Assembly (NCBI GenBank): GCA_021797555.1
Contig: JAJZZM010000001.1
Location: 104,874-168,873 of the forward strand
Length of the DNA stretch: 64,000 bases
Direction: 5' to 3'
DNA from: Thermoplasmata archaeon
Lineage (GTDB): Archaea > Thermoplasmatota > Thermoplasmata > Thermoplasmatales > Thermoplasmataceae
The notes under the pieces were generated by a model that made no database searches, was not told the DNA's origin, and saw only the letters and a program-made list of their open reading frames with translations. Both the position numbers and the translations under genes were made by a program. Positions 10,893 to 38,910 of this stretch are shown piece after piece (position 1 is the stretch's first letter; each line of letters opens with the position of its first letter).

Positions 10893-11009
10893 ACTATTGG
10901 ATATTGATTTAACTTATAAAACTTATTATCCGTACGTATGATAGGCAAAAGTACCATTTTTATAGCCATAACTTCCATATCAAAAAGAATTTAAAGACCT
11001 AAAATATAC
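10893..11009. promoter_or_regulatory. Divergent promoter of the fatty-acid oxidation genes
   Basis: 117 bp between the ligase operon and the hydratase/dehydrogenase fusion gene. A minus-strand TATA box (TTTATAAG, 10913-10920) fits a leaderless start at 10892. In the middle (about 10934-10955) a stretch begins with GTAC and ends with GTAC, a possible operator for a regulator shared by both directions. The operator idea is a guess from position and symmetry. Confidence 0.45.
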
Positions 11010-12935
11010 ATGAGCATGATTAAAAACGTTACCATAGTAGGGGCCGGTGTAATGGGGCACGGAATAGCCGAAGTTTTTGCATTGAACGGCTTTAATGTAA
11101 ACCTGGAAGATTTTTATCCCGAAGTAATAGAAAAAGCAAAGAAGGGAATAAATGAGAGTTTAAATAAATTAATAGCATCAAAAAAAATTGATGAAAATAA
11201 GAAAAATGAAGTATTGAAAAATATAAATTATTTTAATAATATCAGGGATGCAGTAAAGAATGCGGACCTAACGGTAGAGGTTGTGCCCGAAATATATGAA
11301 ATAAAGGTAAAAGTTTTAAAGGAAATATCTGAAAACACAGACAATATAATAGCATCCAACACCTCAAACATAAGAATAACGGAAATGGCATCGGAAATAT
11401 TGAAGCCTGAAAGGTTAATAGGAATGCACTTTTTTAATCCTCCGGTTCTGATGAAGCTTGTTGAGGTAATAAAGGGGGATAAAACTTTGAACAAATATGT
11501 GGATGAAATATATGACCTTGCAGTAAAATTAGGCAAAAAACCCATAAAAGTTTTAAAGGACGAAGCTGGATTCGTTGTTAACAGGATATCTGCACCGGAA
11601 TCACTGTTATTATGCATAGCATACCAGAAAAAGGTGGCAAAGCCGGAAGAGATAGATAAATATTTCAAATCACAGGGATTGCCTATGGGGCCATACCAGT
11701 TATTCGATTACGTTGGAATAGATACAGTGGTTGATTCATTAAAATATTACGCAAAGGAATTATCCCCGGACTATGGAAAATGCAATGCCCTTGATTCATT
11801 TATTAAATCAAAGGAGCTTGGCATGAAAACAGGTTCTGGAATATATAAATGGGAAAATGGAAAGGCCATAATTCCGGAGGCTAATGAAAGCGACAAAATA
11901 AGCTTAATGGATGCGCTTTATTTGGAAGTCAATGAGGCTACAAAATTGCTCGAGGACGGTGTTGCATCGCCAGAGGATATTGAAACCGGGGTTAAATATG
12001 GATTAAACAGGCCATTTGGGCCTATTACGGTTGCAAATGGGTTAAGCAATGATGAAATTCTTGAAACATTAAATAAATTATATGACGAGTATAAAATTGA
12101 TGTATTTCTGCCGTCAAAAACGATAAAAGATCATAAATTGAGGGAAATATTAAATAAAAAGCCTGAAGTTAAAGAACAAAAAAGCGATTTGATAAAATAC
12201 GAGGTTAATGGCAAAGTAGGAATAATAACACTGAATAATGGGAAAAACAATTTAATGAGCATGGAACTTTTAACAGAAATAGAGAAACAGTTAAACATTA
12301 TAGAGAATGATAATGATGTACATGTTATAATTATAAAGGGAAATGAAAAAGCATTTTCTGCCGGAGCTGATTTATCACAGTTTGTCAGCAACCCTTATAA
12401 CTTCATGAAAATATCAAAGCGCGGGGAAGATATATTTGATAGAATAACGAGGATTAATAAAATTTTCATAGCAGAGTTAAAAGGCTACGTTCTTGGCGGT
12501 GGCTTTGAACTTGCACTGGCATGCGATATACGTGTATCCGATAAAAATATAACAATAGGATTCCCTGAAACCAGCCTGGGATTAATACCCGGATATGGTG
12601 GAAGCCAGAGATTGCCAAATTTAATAGGTGCATCAAGGGCGATGGACTTGATATTAACCGCCGATAGGATTAATGGTGAAAAAGCCCATGAATATGGAAT
12701 AGTAACAAGGCTATTTGATAATATTGATGAGGAAACTTTAAAATTTGCCACAGATTTATCAGAAAAAATATCGCCGGCCTCTGCCTATGTTGCAAAGAGA
12801 TTAATATATAATACTTCGAAAATAAACTTCGATGAGGAATCGTTATCAATGGGCATGCTATATGCAGGTAATGATTTAAAGGAAGGAGTAAAGGCTTTTC
12901 TTGAAAAAAGAAAACCGGATTATAAAGGGAATTAA
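11010..12935 (+). CDS. 3-hydroxyacyl-CoA dehydrogenase/enoyl-CoA hydratase fusion
   Basis: Bifunctional enzyme for hydration of enoyl-CoA and NAD-dependent oxidation of the 3-hydroxyacyl-CoA. Of 641 residues, 1-285 form the dehydrogenase with Rossmann motif GAGVMGHGIAE (9-19) and catalytic-region HFFNPPVLMKLVEV. After a second dehydrogenase C-terminal domain, the hydratase runs from about 395 to the end with AFSAGADLS, the Glu-bearing GGGFELALACDIR and FPETSLGLIPGYGG. The domain order (dehydrogenase first) is the archaeal-type arrangement, opposite to bacterial FadB. It is divergent from the ligase-thiolase-dehydrogenase operon and completes the beta-oxidation set. Confidence 0.93.
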   Translation: MSMIKNVTIVGAGVMGHGIAEVFALNGFNVNLEDFYPEVIEKAKKGINESLNKLIASKKIDENKKNEVLKNINYFNNIRDAVKNADLTVEVVPEIYEIKVKVLKEISENTDNIIASNTSNIRITEMASEILKPERLIGMHFFNPPVLMKLVEVIKGDKTLNKYVDEIYDLAVKLGKKPIKVLKDEAGFVVNRISAPESLLLCIAYQKKVAKPEEIDKYFKSQGLPMGPYQLFDYVGIDTVVDSLKYYAKELSPDYGKCNALDSFIKSKELGMKTGSGIYKWENGKAIIPEANESDKISLMDALYLEVNEATKLLEDGVASPEDIETGVKYGLNRPFGPITVANGLSNDEILETLNKLYDEYKIDVFLPSKTIKDHKLREILNKKPEVKEQKSDLIKYEVNGKVGIITLNNGKNNLMSMELLTEIEKQLNIIENDNDVHVIIIKGNEKAFSAGADLSQFVSNPYNFMKISKRGEDIFDRITRINKIFIAELKGYVLGGGFELALACDIRVSDKNITIGFPETSLGLIPGYGGSQRLPNLIGASRAMDLILTADRINGEKAHEYGIVTRLFDNIDEETLKFATDLSEKISPASAYVAKRLIYNTSKINFDEESLSMGMLYAGNDLKEGVKAFLEKRKPDYKGN

Positions 12936-23282: not shown

Positions 23283-23577
23283 GGAAATGCCCGGAGTAAG
23301 CCTCCTTCTGTTAGCCTTTCGGTTGGCAACATTCGACTATGCGTCTTACCTGAATCTCGCGGTCGGCTCATAAATTCTTTTTAGACTTGCACCCTGCAGG
23401 GAGAGTTCCCATCTGCACTCCATAAAACGTCATCTTTTCGAATCATTCTTTGTATGGAACAGTTTATTTCTTATCCCTTTACCATACCTCTCGGTATTAC
23501 GGCTTTCACCGTATGCAGTTGACCGTGGAGGGGGGACTTTCCTCACCTTTCGGCGTAAGTTGCCCTCGGGCTTTTCC
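23283..23577 (-). ncRNA. rnpB: RNase P RNA (archaeal type)
   Basis: Catalytic RNA of ribonuclease P, which matures tRNA 5' ends. On the minus strand the 5' end GGAAAAGCCCGAGGGC pairs with the 3' end GCCC...TTTCC (P1 region). The universal GAGGAAAGTC element (CR I) is at 23535-23544, and CR V-type ACAGAAGGAGGCTTA lies at about 23297-23313. AGACGCATAG and multiple short hairpins lie between. Length is about 295 nt. This is the only non-tRNA structured RNA I recognise in the window. Confidence 0.93.
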
Positions 23578-35595: not shown

Positions 35596-36074
35596 AATAT
35601 TATAAATTTTCAATGTTAATTAGATATGATATTTCAGGTATTGTAGAATAAAGTTATCGCATTGAAATTCACTGTAATTTATTTGGTTTAGAGAGATTTC
35701 CTGCAAAACTATGTTATTCAGAGACATATGTAACATTATCCATGATAATATAGATTATACTTATAAGATAGGTTTAAAATTCTATCACCTGTTTCTAGGA
35801 TATATTAAAATTCTTTTAATTAACTAATTTTTGCAGCTTTTTTGTGGAAATGGACCATATTTGCTTTATAGATATTTAACAGGGTCTAGACAATTTATTT
35901 TTACTTTCTTCCTATATTGTAATCACCTCTCCATATATTTTTTATATCTTAATTATAATATAATTTATTAAGCATATAATATTATTTTTATATTACAAAA
36001 CGGTACCGTGAGTATATAAATAAAAACCTGAAAAGACCAATTAAATATGTTACCTACTTGAACTTTTATGATAA
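35596..36074. other. Gene-free region next to tRNA-Leu
   Basis: 479 bp. Its last 100 bp (35971-36074) are the conserved flank shared with the other tRNA-Leu. The rest is AT-rich; I see no gene. A minus-strand AGAGGTGATT near 35930 looks like a ribosome-binding site, but no frame follows it. Confidence 0.5.
35971..36074 (-). repeat. Conserved downstream flank of tRNA-Leu (copy 2)
   Basis: Matches 29829-29930 over about 100 bp at roughly 70% by eye, with the same blocks in the same order and the same distance from the tRNA. Confidence 0.6.
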
Positions 36075-36159
36075 TGCAGAGGACGGGATTTGAACCCGCG
36101 AACTCCTTCGAGACTAGACCCTTAATCTAGCGCCTTTGTCCTAACTCGGTAACCTCTGC
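36075..36159 (-). tRNA. tRNA-Leu (apparent anticodon AAG)
   Basis: 85 nt. Acceptor GCAGAGG/CCTCTGC, discriminator A, anticodon stem CTAGA/TCTAG, loop TTAAGGG, long variable arm CTCGAAGGAGT, T-arm GCGGG-TTCAAAT-CCCGT. The loop reads anticodon AAG. Archaea normally use GAG here, with loop TTGAGGG, so one G-to-A change at position 34 would explain it. All other features are normal. Confidence 0.9.
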
Positions 36160-36198
36160 ATATCTATATGTTTTCAAAATATATTAACTTTATAATAA

Positions 36199-38910
36199 AT
36201 GATAATACAATTTATTAATGATATCATAATTATTGCCCACATGATAAATGAGGATACACTGGTAATAGCCAATCCGGGAACGGGAAAAACAACCAGGATT
36301 GCCGAAGAGGTTGTTGGCCTTATTAAAGATGGAGTCAAAACCGATAGAATATTATGCATAACATTTACAAACAAGGCAGTAGAGAGCTTAGAAAATAAGA
36401 TAAATCAAAAATTAGTTGAAAATAATATAAATAATATAACGGCATATGATTTAAAAATAAGGACATTCCATAGCTTTGCATATGAGGAATTAAATGAAGA
36501 TGATACCATAAATGATATAATATCATATAACCTTGCCAGATATTTAATTTATAAAAAATTAAGAGAACTGAAAGCATTTAATTATTCAAGGGATTATGTA
36601 ATAAGTAATATAATACCAAAATTAGAGAATGCTATAAGATATTTAAAAAGTTTTGGAATAAAACCACACGATATTAAAAATAATAGGGATACAATAAAAG
36701 AATTAATAATTAAAAAACACGATGAAAATGTTAAAAACATCGGTCGTGAGGAGGAGGAATATTTATTTGATTATTTCTATGAGGCCTTTGACTATTATGA
36801 AAATAATAAAAAATATTATGATTATAATGATTTATTATTTGAATTTATTAAAAAGGAAAACAAAAACGAATATGATTATATATTTGTTGACGAACTGCAG
36901 GATGTAAATAATATAGAAGCAGAGATAGCAAATAATGCAGGGCATAAAAAATATTTTGTAGGGGATAAAAAACAGTCCATATTTGGATTCCAGGGTGGGG
37001 CCTTGTCCGTTTTTAAGGAGCTCATTGACAATAGCACCATAAATAAAATTTACCTGGAAAAAAACCATAGAAGCACTGACGCAATACTGAATTATTCAAA
37101 GGAATTTTATTTAAAATATTCCAATGACAATTCCGATGAACTGGATAAATTTAATGGCGAGAAGGGCAGGGGTGAACCTGTAAAAATAATTGAATCCGAT
37201 GAACCCGAAAATTCAATAATAGAAATTATAAACGAAATAGAGAAAAAATCCGATAAAAAAATAGGCATAATTGCAAGAACAAATGATCAGATAGATAAAA
37301 TATCAAAAATATTTGATGGCTATAATATAAAATATACAAGTGATTCAAATATACATACAGTAAATGAAGCAAAAAAGGATATAATAGATTTTTTTAGGGG
37401 AATATTTTATGATGATAATGATGATATTATAAAGGCGATATTCTCACCGTTTTCAGGCCTATCATTAAAGGCAGCATTTGAAATTTCAGATAAAATAAAT
37501 AATGAAAATAATTTACTGGAGTTTTATAATGAACCATTTTTTTCCCTAAAGAAGAAGGATTTCAATAAGGAAACAGTAAATGAATTATTTAACAAAAATA
37601 TATTGCCTATAGCAGCATCAATAAGCAATGAGTATTTTTTAACAGCCGCAACAGTAAAATCATCATTGAAAGAATTCTTTGATGTTGAGGATAATTATAC
37701 AAGAAAAAATTTTTTTGATTATTTGGAACTGGCATATTCTGAAAACGAAAACATATCGAATGAGGGGAAAATAATATTGACAACAGTACATAAGGCAAAA
37801 GGCCGTGAATTCGACAATGTAATATATTTACCAAAAAAGAAAAGGAAAACGGATTCGTATATAGATATAATAACATCATCAATTATTAGTGTAATAAAAA
37901 ATATAGATGTTGACAATGAATTAATGGAAGAGGATATAAGAGTGGATTTTGTGGCATTTACAAGGGCAAAATATAATTTATATATAGCTCTAAAATCAAA
38001 GGAATCCGATTATTATTATATAAATAATTATTCTGACATTAAAAAATTGTCAAATATAGAGAACAGTATTGCAATACCGGATAAAAATAGATATGATGAG
38101 GCATATATGAAATTTGTCAACGGAGAATATGAGGATGCTATAAAAATTTTAAATGAAAAAGATGACTGGCTAAGGAATTTGATTTATAATTTCTTTAAGA
38201 ATAAAACAAAATTATCATTTTCATTGATAAGCATAGATAACCCATACTGGTTTTTAAAGAATTACATATTAAAGTTAAATGAAAAAACCGATGCCCTGTA
38301 CTACGGTTCAAATGCGCATGATTTTGCAGAATCCATATATAAAAACGAGCTCGATATGGAATCTGTTGATGAAGAGTATAAAGATGTTGTAGCAAATATA
38401 AAATCGGTTATTAATGCGATAAAAACAGGATTCAACATGGAGCAGATAGCCGCCGAAGTTGGTGGGGCAATAAGGGTTAACCAGATGTTTGATGAATTTA
38501 AAAATGTTGATGATTCAATAACATTTTTCGGCAAGCTTGATGCGGTTTTCAGCGATGGCGATAAATATTTAATCCTTGATTATAAAACTGATAAAAATAG
38601 CAATAACATACGCCATCACAGGGTTCAGCTATTATCATATAAAATACTGTATTCGGTAAAAAATAACATAGACATAAATAAAATAAGCACTGCCCTTGGC
38701 TATATAAGCATGAGGGGCAACATAAATACCCACAGGAATGACAGCGGTGTTTTTTACAAGGAACCGGATAAATATTCTGAAAAAACGTTAAAAGGTTATA
38801 TAAAAAGGTTTTTGGATTATAGGGAAAACCCTGAAATATATATAAAAGACCTTATCAATTCTGATAACAATGATACCCTGTTTAACAGGTTGATAAATAT
38901 TCTTAAATAA
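36199..38910 (+). CDS. UvrD/AddA-like helicase with C-terminal RecB-type nuclease
   Basis: Superfamily 1 DNA helicase fused to a PD-(D/E)XK nuclease; family role is processing or degrading DNA ends in repair. 903 residues: Walker A NPGTGKTT (25-32), motif Ia ITFTNKAVESL, Walker B FVDELQDV with D231/E232, motif III GDKKQSIFGFQGG, motif V TVHKAKGREFDNVIYL, motif VI VAFTRAKYNLYIAL, then a nuclease near 690-860 with GKLDAVF (D781) and LDYKT (793-797). ATG 36241 would give a start just before Walker A and is also possible. No AddB partner is nearby. Confidence 0.88.
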   Translation: MIIQFINDIIIIAHMINEDTLVIANPGTGKTTRIAEEVVGLIKDGVKTDRILCITFTNKAVESLENKINQKLVENNINNITAYDLKIRTFHSFAYEELNEDDTINDIISYNLARYLIYKKLRELKAFNYSRDYVISNIIPKLENAIRYLKSFGIKPHDIKNNRDTIKELIIKKHDENVKNIGREEEEYLFDYFYEAFDYYENNKKYYDYNDLLFEFIKKENKNEYDYIFVDELQDVNNIEAEIANNAGHKKYFVGDKKQSIFGFQGGALSVFKELIDNSTINKIYLEKNHRSTDAILNYSKEFYLKYSNDNSDELDKFNGEKGRGEPVKIIESDEPENSIIEIINEIEKKSDKKIGIIARTNDQIDKISKIFDGYNIKYTSDSNIHTVNEAKKDIIDFFRGIFYDDNDDIIKAIFSPFSGLSLKAAFEISDKINNENNLLEFYNEPFFSLKKKDFNKETVNELFNKNILPIAASISNEYFLTAATVKSSLKEFFDVEDNYTRKNFFDYLELAYSENENISNEGKIILTTVHKAKGREFDNVIYLPKKKRKTDSYIDIITSSIISVIKNIDVDNELMEEDIRVDFVAFTRAKYNLYIALKSKESDYYYINNYSDIKKLSNIENSIAIPDKNRYDEAYMKFVNGEYEDAIKILNEKDDWLRNLIYNFFKNKTKLSFSLISIDNPYWFLKNYILKLNEKTDALYYGSNAHDFAESIYKNELDMESVDEEYKDVVANIKSVINAIKTGFNMEQIAAEVGGAIRVNQMFDEFKNVDDSITFFGKLDAVFSDGDKYLILDYKTDKNSNNIRHHRVQLLSYKILYSVKNNIDINKISTALGYISMRGNINTHRNDSGVFYKEPDKYSEKTLKGYIKRFLDYRENPEIYIKDLINSDNNDTLFNRLINILK

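Follow-up and report, generated by a model that had tools for sequence, protein, structure and literature searches.

The window, a 64,000-nucleotide stretch from the genome of an acidophilic Ferroplasma species (1.94 Mb in 24 contigs, 99.6% complete), contains a gene for a leucine tRNA with the anticodon AAG. The features of the locus are as follows.

36075..36159, minus strand: tRNA-Leu(AAG) gene, 85 nt, intronless (ARAGORN, Rfam RF00005, 100% identity with nine other Ferroplasma genomes)
36121..36123, minus strand: anticodon AAG (sequence and ARAGORN anticodon call)
36119-36125, minus strand: anticodon loop TTAAGGG (sequence), with G37 on the 3' side of the anticodon
36180..36191, minus strand: putative BRE/TATA promoter element AAAGTTAATATA (alignment of 14 genomes)

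The sequence of the gene is GCAGAGGTTACCGAGTTAGGACAAAGGCGCTAGATTAAGGGTCTAGTCTCGAAGGAGTTCGCGGGTTCAAATCCCGTCCTCTGCA, and its wobble base, A34, lies at window position 36123 (T on the plus strand). ARAGORN predicts a tRNA-Leu with anticodon aag and boundaries 36074-36160, and the match to Rfam RF00005 scores 39.7 bits (E 7e-5). Pairing is complete in the acceptor stem (7 bp), anticodon stem and T stem; these and the variable stem were recovered by a single-strand fold (z -2.4). The long variable arm places the molecule among class II tRNAs, and the gene ends in A (A73, the discriminator), the base expected at this position in archaeal Leu tRNAs. Thus, the gene has the long-variable-arm cloverleaf, paired stems and A73 of a class II archaeal tRNA-Leu. 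Its leucine identity is further indicated by comparison with relatives, in which the typical archaeal tRNA-Leu(GAG) (e.g., in genomes G027, G017 and G020) has an orthologous body and the loop TTRAGGG. These relatives have G34, whereas the form in Ferroplasma and Acidiplasma has A34.

The same 85 nucleotides, letter for letter, are present in nine of nine other Ferroplasma genomes, three of which are single contigs and one of which is F. acidarmanus Fer1 (NC_021592.1). Because of this identity, and as judged from the assemblies, an assembly or read error at A34 can for practical purposes be excluded. A34 also occurs in three genomes of a second genus, taken as Acidiplasma (one is Acidiplasma aeolicum VT), where the tRNA body differs. 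There the anticodon stem carries a paired change, from CTAGA/TCTAG to CCAGA/TCTGG, with A34 retained. In a search of 117 Thermoplasmatales genomes, the A34 pattern matched 13, exactly the ten Ferroplasma and three Acidiplasma genomes, and none of the 104 others. The nearly identical strict pattern for the G34 form matched 63 of those 104 and none of the 13; the remaining 41 matched neither pattern, and their stems may differ from it. A loose GAG pattern was dropped, as it produced chance matches in nearly every genome. Across 84,980 species genomes the A34 pattern was found in this clade only, as judged by record titles, although a pattern with a Thermoplasmatales shape would miss other archaea. 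Among the G34 genomes, the nearest relative is G027, inferred to be probably Picrophilus; its tRNA is 87% identical to the AAG tRNA. This distribution is most simply explained if G changed to A once, before Ferroplasma and Acidiplasma diverged.

The RF00005 search identified 45 tRNAs in the genome of the window. The leucine anticodons among them are UAG, CAG, UAA, CAA and AAG, and no tRNA-Leu(GAG) was detected by this search in the 99.6% complete assembly. Every Ferroplasma genome has five Leu-like matches, and under the strict pattern the GAG form is absent from all 13 Ferroplasma and Acidiplasma genomes, including three single-contig ones. A T-loop pattern found only one real tRNA beyond those already known in the genome of the window, an intron-bearing tRNA-Trp. 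Thus, the AAG anticodon, the replacement of GAG and the absence of GAG, as published for Ferroplasma tRNA-Leu-AAG, are all found here. The sequence-only reading had described a Leu tRNA with an AAG anticodon in a TTAAGGG loop in an archaeon, standing in place of the usual archaeal GAG. ARAGORN, Rfam and the sequence itself agree with the first point and the Leu tRNA set bears out the second. It had also named a G at this site in other assemblies, or a second intact tRNA-Leu(GAG) together with no expression of this one, as observations that would count against it; A is present in 13 of 13 Ferroplasma and Acidiplasma genomes and no such second gene was found.

One expected tRNA, tRNA-Phe(GAA), was not found in the 24 contigs by RF00005, by the T-loop pattern or by a Phe-shaped pattern; an assembly gap, an intron or an unusual sequence are candidate causes. 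This assembly thus has single-gene gaps, but the absence of a GAG gene from single-contig relatives makes it unlikely that one was missed. Also identified were two identical tRNA-Ala(GGC) genes (G000:C14:10779-10850 and 10963-11034), 184 bases apart start to start; all other anticodons found in this genome are single copy, except CAT. An archaeal RNase P RNA is encoded in the window at 23285-23575 (minus strand).

The putative BRE/TATA element is located 21-32 nt upstream of the 5' end of tRNA-Leu(AAG), the usual archaeal TATA/BRE position. It is kept with small variations in 14 of 14 aligned genomes, and the flanks are divergent. The same putative element precedes the G34 orthologue in G027 (the genome for which this was checked), which supports substitution of G34 by A in place. 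The tRNA is 85/85 identical across the ten Ferroplasma species. By comparison, the neighboring helicase protein shows 55-80% identity among those Ferroplasma species in which the helicase adjoins the tRNA, and the Leu tRNAs with anticodons UAG, CAG, UAA and CAA, unlike the AAG tRNA, differ between the genome of the window and F. acidarmanus. Because the tRNA is identical despite this divergence, and the upstream element is kept while its flanks are not, tRNA-Leu(AAG) looks like a working gene under selection. The helicase gene itself (36241-38910, plus strand) is transcribed divergently from the tRNA gene and encodes a UvrD-type helicase with a C-terminal PD-(D/E)XK nuclease domain, an AddA/RecB-like layout. 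It adjoins the tRNA in several Ferroplasma species and was not found beside it in F. acidarmanus or Acidiplasma.

We did not identify a TadA- or ADAR-type deaminase in the genome of the window, and no A_deamin domain was detected in five genomes of the A34 clade and its neighbor. Only one CDA-fold protein was found in the genome of the window. It has dCMP-deaminase motifs, its best PDB matches are deoxycytidylate deaminases, and its score with the TadA model NF008113 is 33 bits, far short of the cut-off of 150; species with G34 carry the same dCMP deaminase. This protein was considered as an archaeal TadA candidate via PF14437 (MafB19-deam), which also matches TadA in control genomes. The family matches 58 of 61 genomes, including that of the window, and the candidate was rejected as a dCMP deaminase on the basis of motif, NCBIfam and PDB comparison and its occurrence in G34 species. 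This dCMP deaminase, conserved across the Thermoplasmatales, passes the PF14437 cut-off and could be misannotated as TadA-like. Of the components of an inosine-34 system, the A34-encoding tRNA gene is present and a TadA or ADAT2/3 deaminase gene was not found. Given this negative search for TadA/ADAT, the base at position 34 is most likely left as adenosine. A preprint on high-throughput mapping of archaeal tRNA modifications makes no mention of Ferroplasma, Acidiplasma or inosine (PMC12247713).

The C-ending codon of the CUN box is still in use in the absence of a G34 tRNA. In sampled genome stretches, CUC occurs at 2.3 per 1000 codons in the genome of the window, 8.6 in F. acidarmanus, 9.8 in genome G005 and 6.2 in Acidiplasma. 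Among Leu codons it ranks last in the genome of the window (2.4%) and accounts for ~10% in F. acidarmanus. CUC is present in the ribosomal-protein region too (located by L14, since ribosomal protein L2 had no PF00181 match above cut-off in the genomes compared). Given this persistence, the codon must be read. The sequence-only reading had expected the reading of CUC to be affected unless another tRNA-Leu covered it, and this is not reflected in codon usage, where CUC is used without clear clade-specific avoidance. No clear A34-specific shortage of CUC relative to other C/U-ending pairs was found, and the strongest shortage is in the G34 relative G027. A34 and G34 genomes are not separated by the ratio CUC/(CUC+CUU) when it is compared with those of the other pyrimidine pairs. 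From bulk genes to the ribosomal-protein region, CUC goes down in three of four A34 genomes and up in four of five G34 genomes. This shift leans toward the prediction for unmodified A34 but is not evidence, as G027, the nearest G34 relative, behaves like the A34 group. Since there is no A34-specific CUC shortage, A34 and I34 cannot be told apart from codon usage.

Our preferred interpretation, to which we give a probability of roughly 60%, is that this tRNA-Leu(AAG) is functional, took the place of the GAG form once in an ancestor shared by Ferroplasma and Acidiplasma, has been retained by selection, and reads both CUU and CUC with an unmodified A34. An ancestral tRNA-Leu(GAG) would have become tRNA-Leu(AAG) by one substitution of G34 by A before the two genera split, and would have been maintained by selection since. 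CUU would be read through a Watson-Crick A-U pair and CUC through an A-C wobble; the latter would be harmless to protein because the whole CUN box encodes leucine. CUA and CUG would be read by tRNA-Leu(UAG) and tRNA-Leu(CAG). That unmodified A34 has some capacity to read CUC is indicated by work in E. coli: a tRNA(AAG) derived from M. jannaschii and carrying A37G, in which no inosine was detected, reads codons ending in U and C at 87:13 (PMC11066159). G37 is common to that tRNA and to the Ferroplasma tRNA-Leu(AAG).

Alternatively, A34 could be converted to inosine by a deaminase not recognizable from sequence (a new fold, or a moonlighting dCMP deaminase), and the resulting tRNA-Leu(IAG) would read CUU, CUC and, in part, CUA. 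Outside this clade, almost every A34 tRNA is modified to inosine (PMC11066159), and inosine would easily explain the lack of any special avoidance of CUC in genomes with A34. We nevertheless consider this unlikely, given the lack of a TadA or A_deamin homologue in the genomes searched, the ordinary appearance of the sole CDA-fold protein and its presence in species without an A34 tRNA; moreover, unmodified A34 is sufficient for some reading of CUC in E. coli (PMC11066159). It is also conceivable that A34 reads CUU only, and that CUC is read by tRNA-Leu(UAG), which is present in the genome of the window, through U34 superwobble. The rarity of CUC in this genome and the general preference of unmodified A34 for U-ending codons (PMC11066159) are consistent with this. 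However, loss of a dedicated tRNA should make CUC costly, and F. acidarmanus, with CUC at ~10% of its Leu codons, shows no clear avoidance of it compared with G34 relatives; we judge this route to be quite improbable. There is only a negligible chance that we are dealing with a sequencing error, a pseudogene or an extra tRNA beside a hidden tRNA-Leu(GAG): the missing tRNA-Phe indicates that one tRNA can escape detection in this assembly, but A34 recurs in two genera and 13 independent genomes, the gene is invariant in Ferroplasma, its fold is intact and its upstream element conserved, and single-contig genomes are among the 13 without a GAG form.

The AAG anticodon in F. acidarmanus is already known. 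It was reported in 2016 as the only case among archaea so far of AAG on a Leu tRNA (PMC4810243), and in 2018 the F. acidarmanus tRNA-Leu-AAG was described with GAG absent, a G-to-A origin was proposed, and it was called a species-specific gain (PMC6000648). The tRNA in the window is the same 85 nt, and a GAG gene was likewise not found in the genome of the window. In contrast to a species-specific gain, AAG is present in all ten Ferroplasma and three Acidiplasma genomes examined, which indicates that the substitution is older. Fixation across the clade, including Acidiplasma, together with the missing deaminase, appears to be new. The comparisons made here also add the clean mutual exclusion of A34 and G34, the 85-nt identity and the conservation of the apparent upstream element. 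According to a 2024 paper, archaea have no A34 tRNA genes (PMC11066159).

As in bacteria and eukaryotes with tRNA-Leu(IAG), a gene-encoded A34 is found in the sole tRNA dedicated to CUU and CUC, but those systems have TadA or ADAT2/3, no relative of which was found in the genome of the window. Unmodified A34 tRNAs, with A34 genes but no recognizable deaminase, are known in tRNA-Thr(AGU) of Mycoplasma and tRNA-Arg(ACG) of yeast mitochondria (PMC11066159). These belong to highly reduced tRNA sets, whereas Ferroplasma retains four further tRNAs for leucine, UAG and CAG among them. The complete replacement of G34 by A34 in this clade, whose members are free-living, have a tRNA set that is normal in other respects and lack a recognizable deaminase, constitutes a natural test of wobble reading by unmodified A. 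Some species of the A34 clade are cultured.

The clade possibly also tests whether cell acidity alters wobble rules. The acidic Ferroplasma cytoplasm may aid the reading of CUC by a protonated A+-C pair. In its stronger form, which we regard as doubtful, low internal pH is what lets unmodified A34 read C-ending codons via A+-C wobble, doing the job that inosine does elsewhere; if true, Ferroplasma and Acidiplasma would have a natural pH-dependent codon-anticodon pair. For F. acidarmanus, the reported internal pH is 4.9 +/- 0.5, and C-A pairs are reported to be in excess in the stems of its tRNAs (PMC3372908; the word 'wobble' is absent from that paper), and A+-C mismatches in RNA have an elevated pKa of ~6-7 (PMC12714568). 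Together, these make an acid-favored A+-C wobble a reasonable refinement of unmodified A34 reading. The pH idea is not required, codon usage carries no clear signature of it, and acidity cannot be the whole story, because G027 keeps G34 though the interior of Picrophilus, which it probably represents, is reportedly just as acidic (internal pH about 4.6; PMC3372908). In line with the published C-A excess in F. acidarmanus tRNAs (PMC3372908), the tRNAs of the genome of the window have C-A mismatches at 7 of 726 stem pairs (acceptor, anticodon and T stems, counted with a simple parser), five of which are the first anticodon-stem pair (in Gln, Gly, two Glu and Arg tRNAs).
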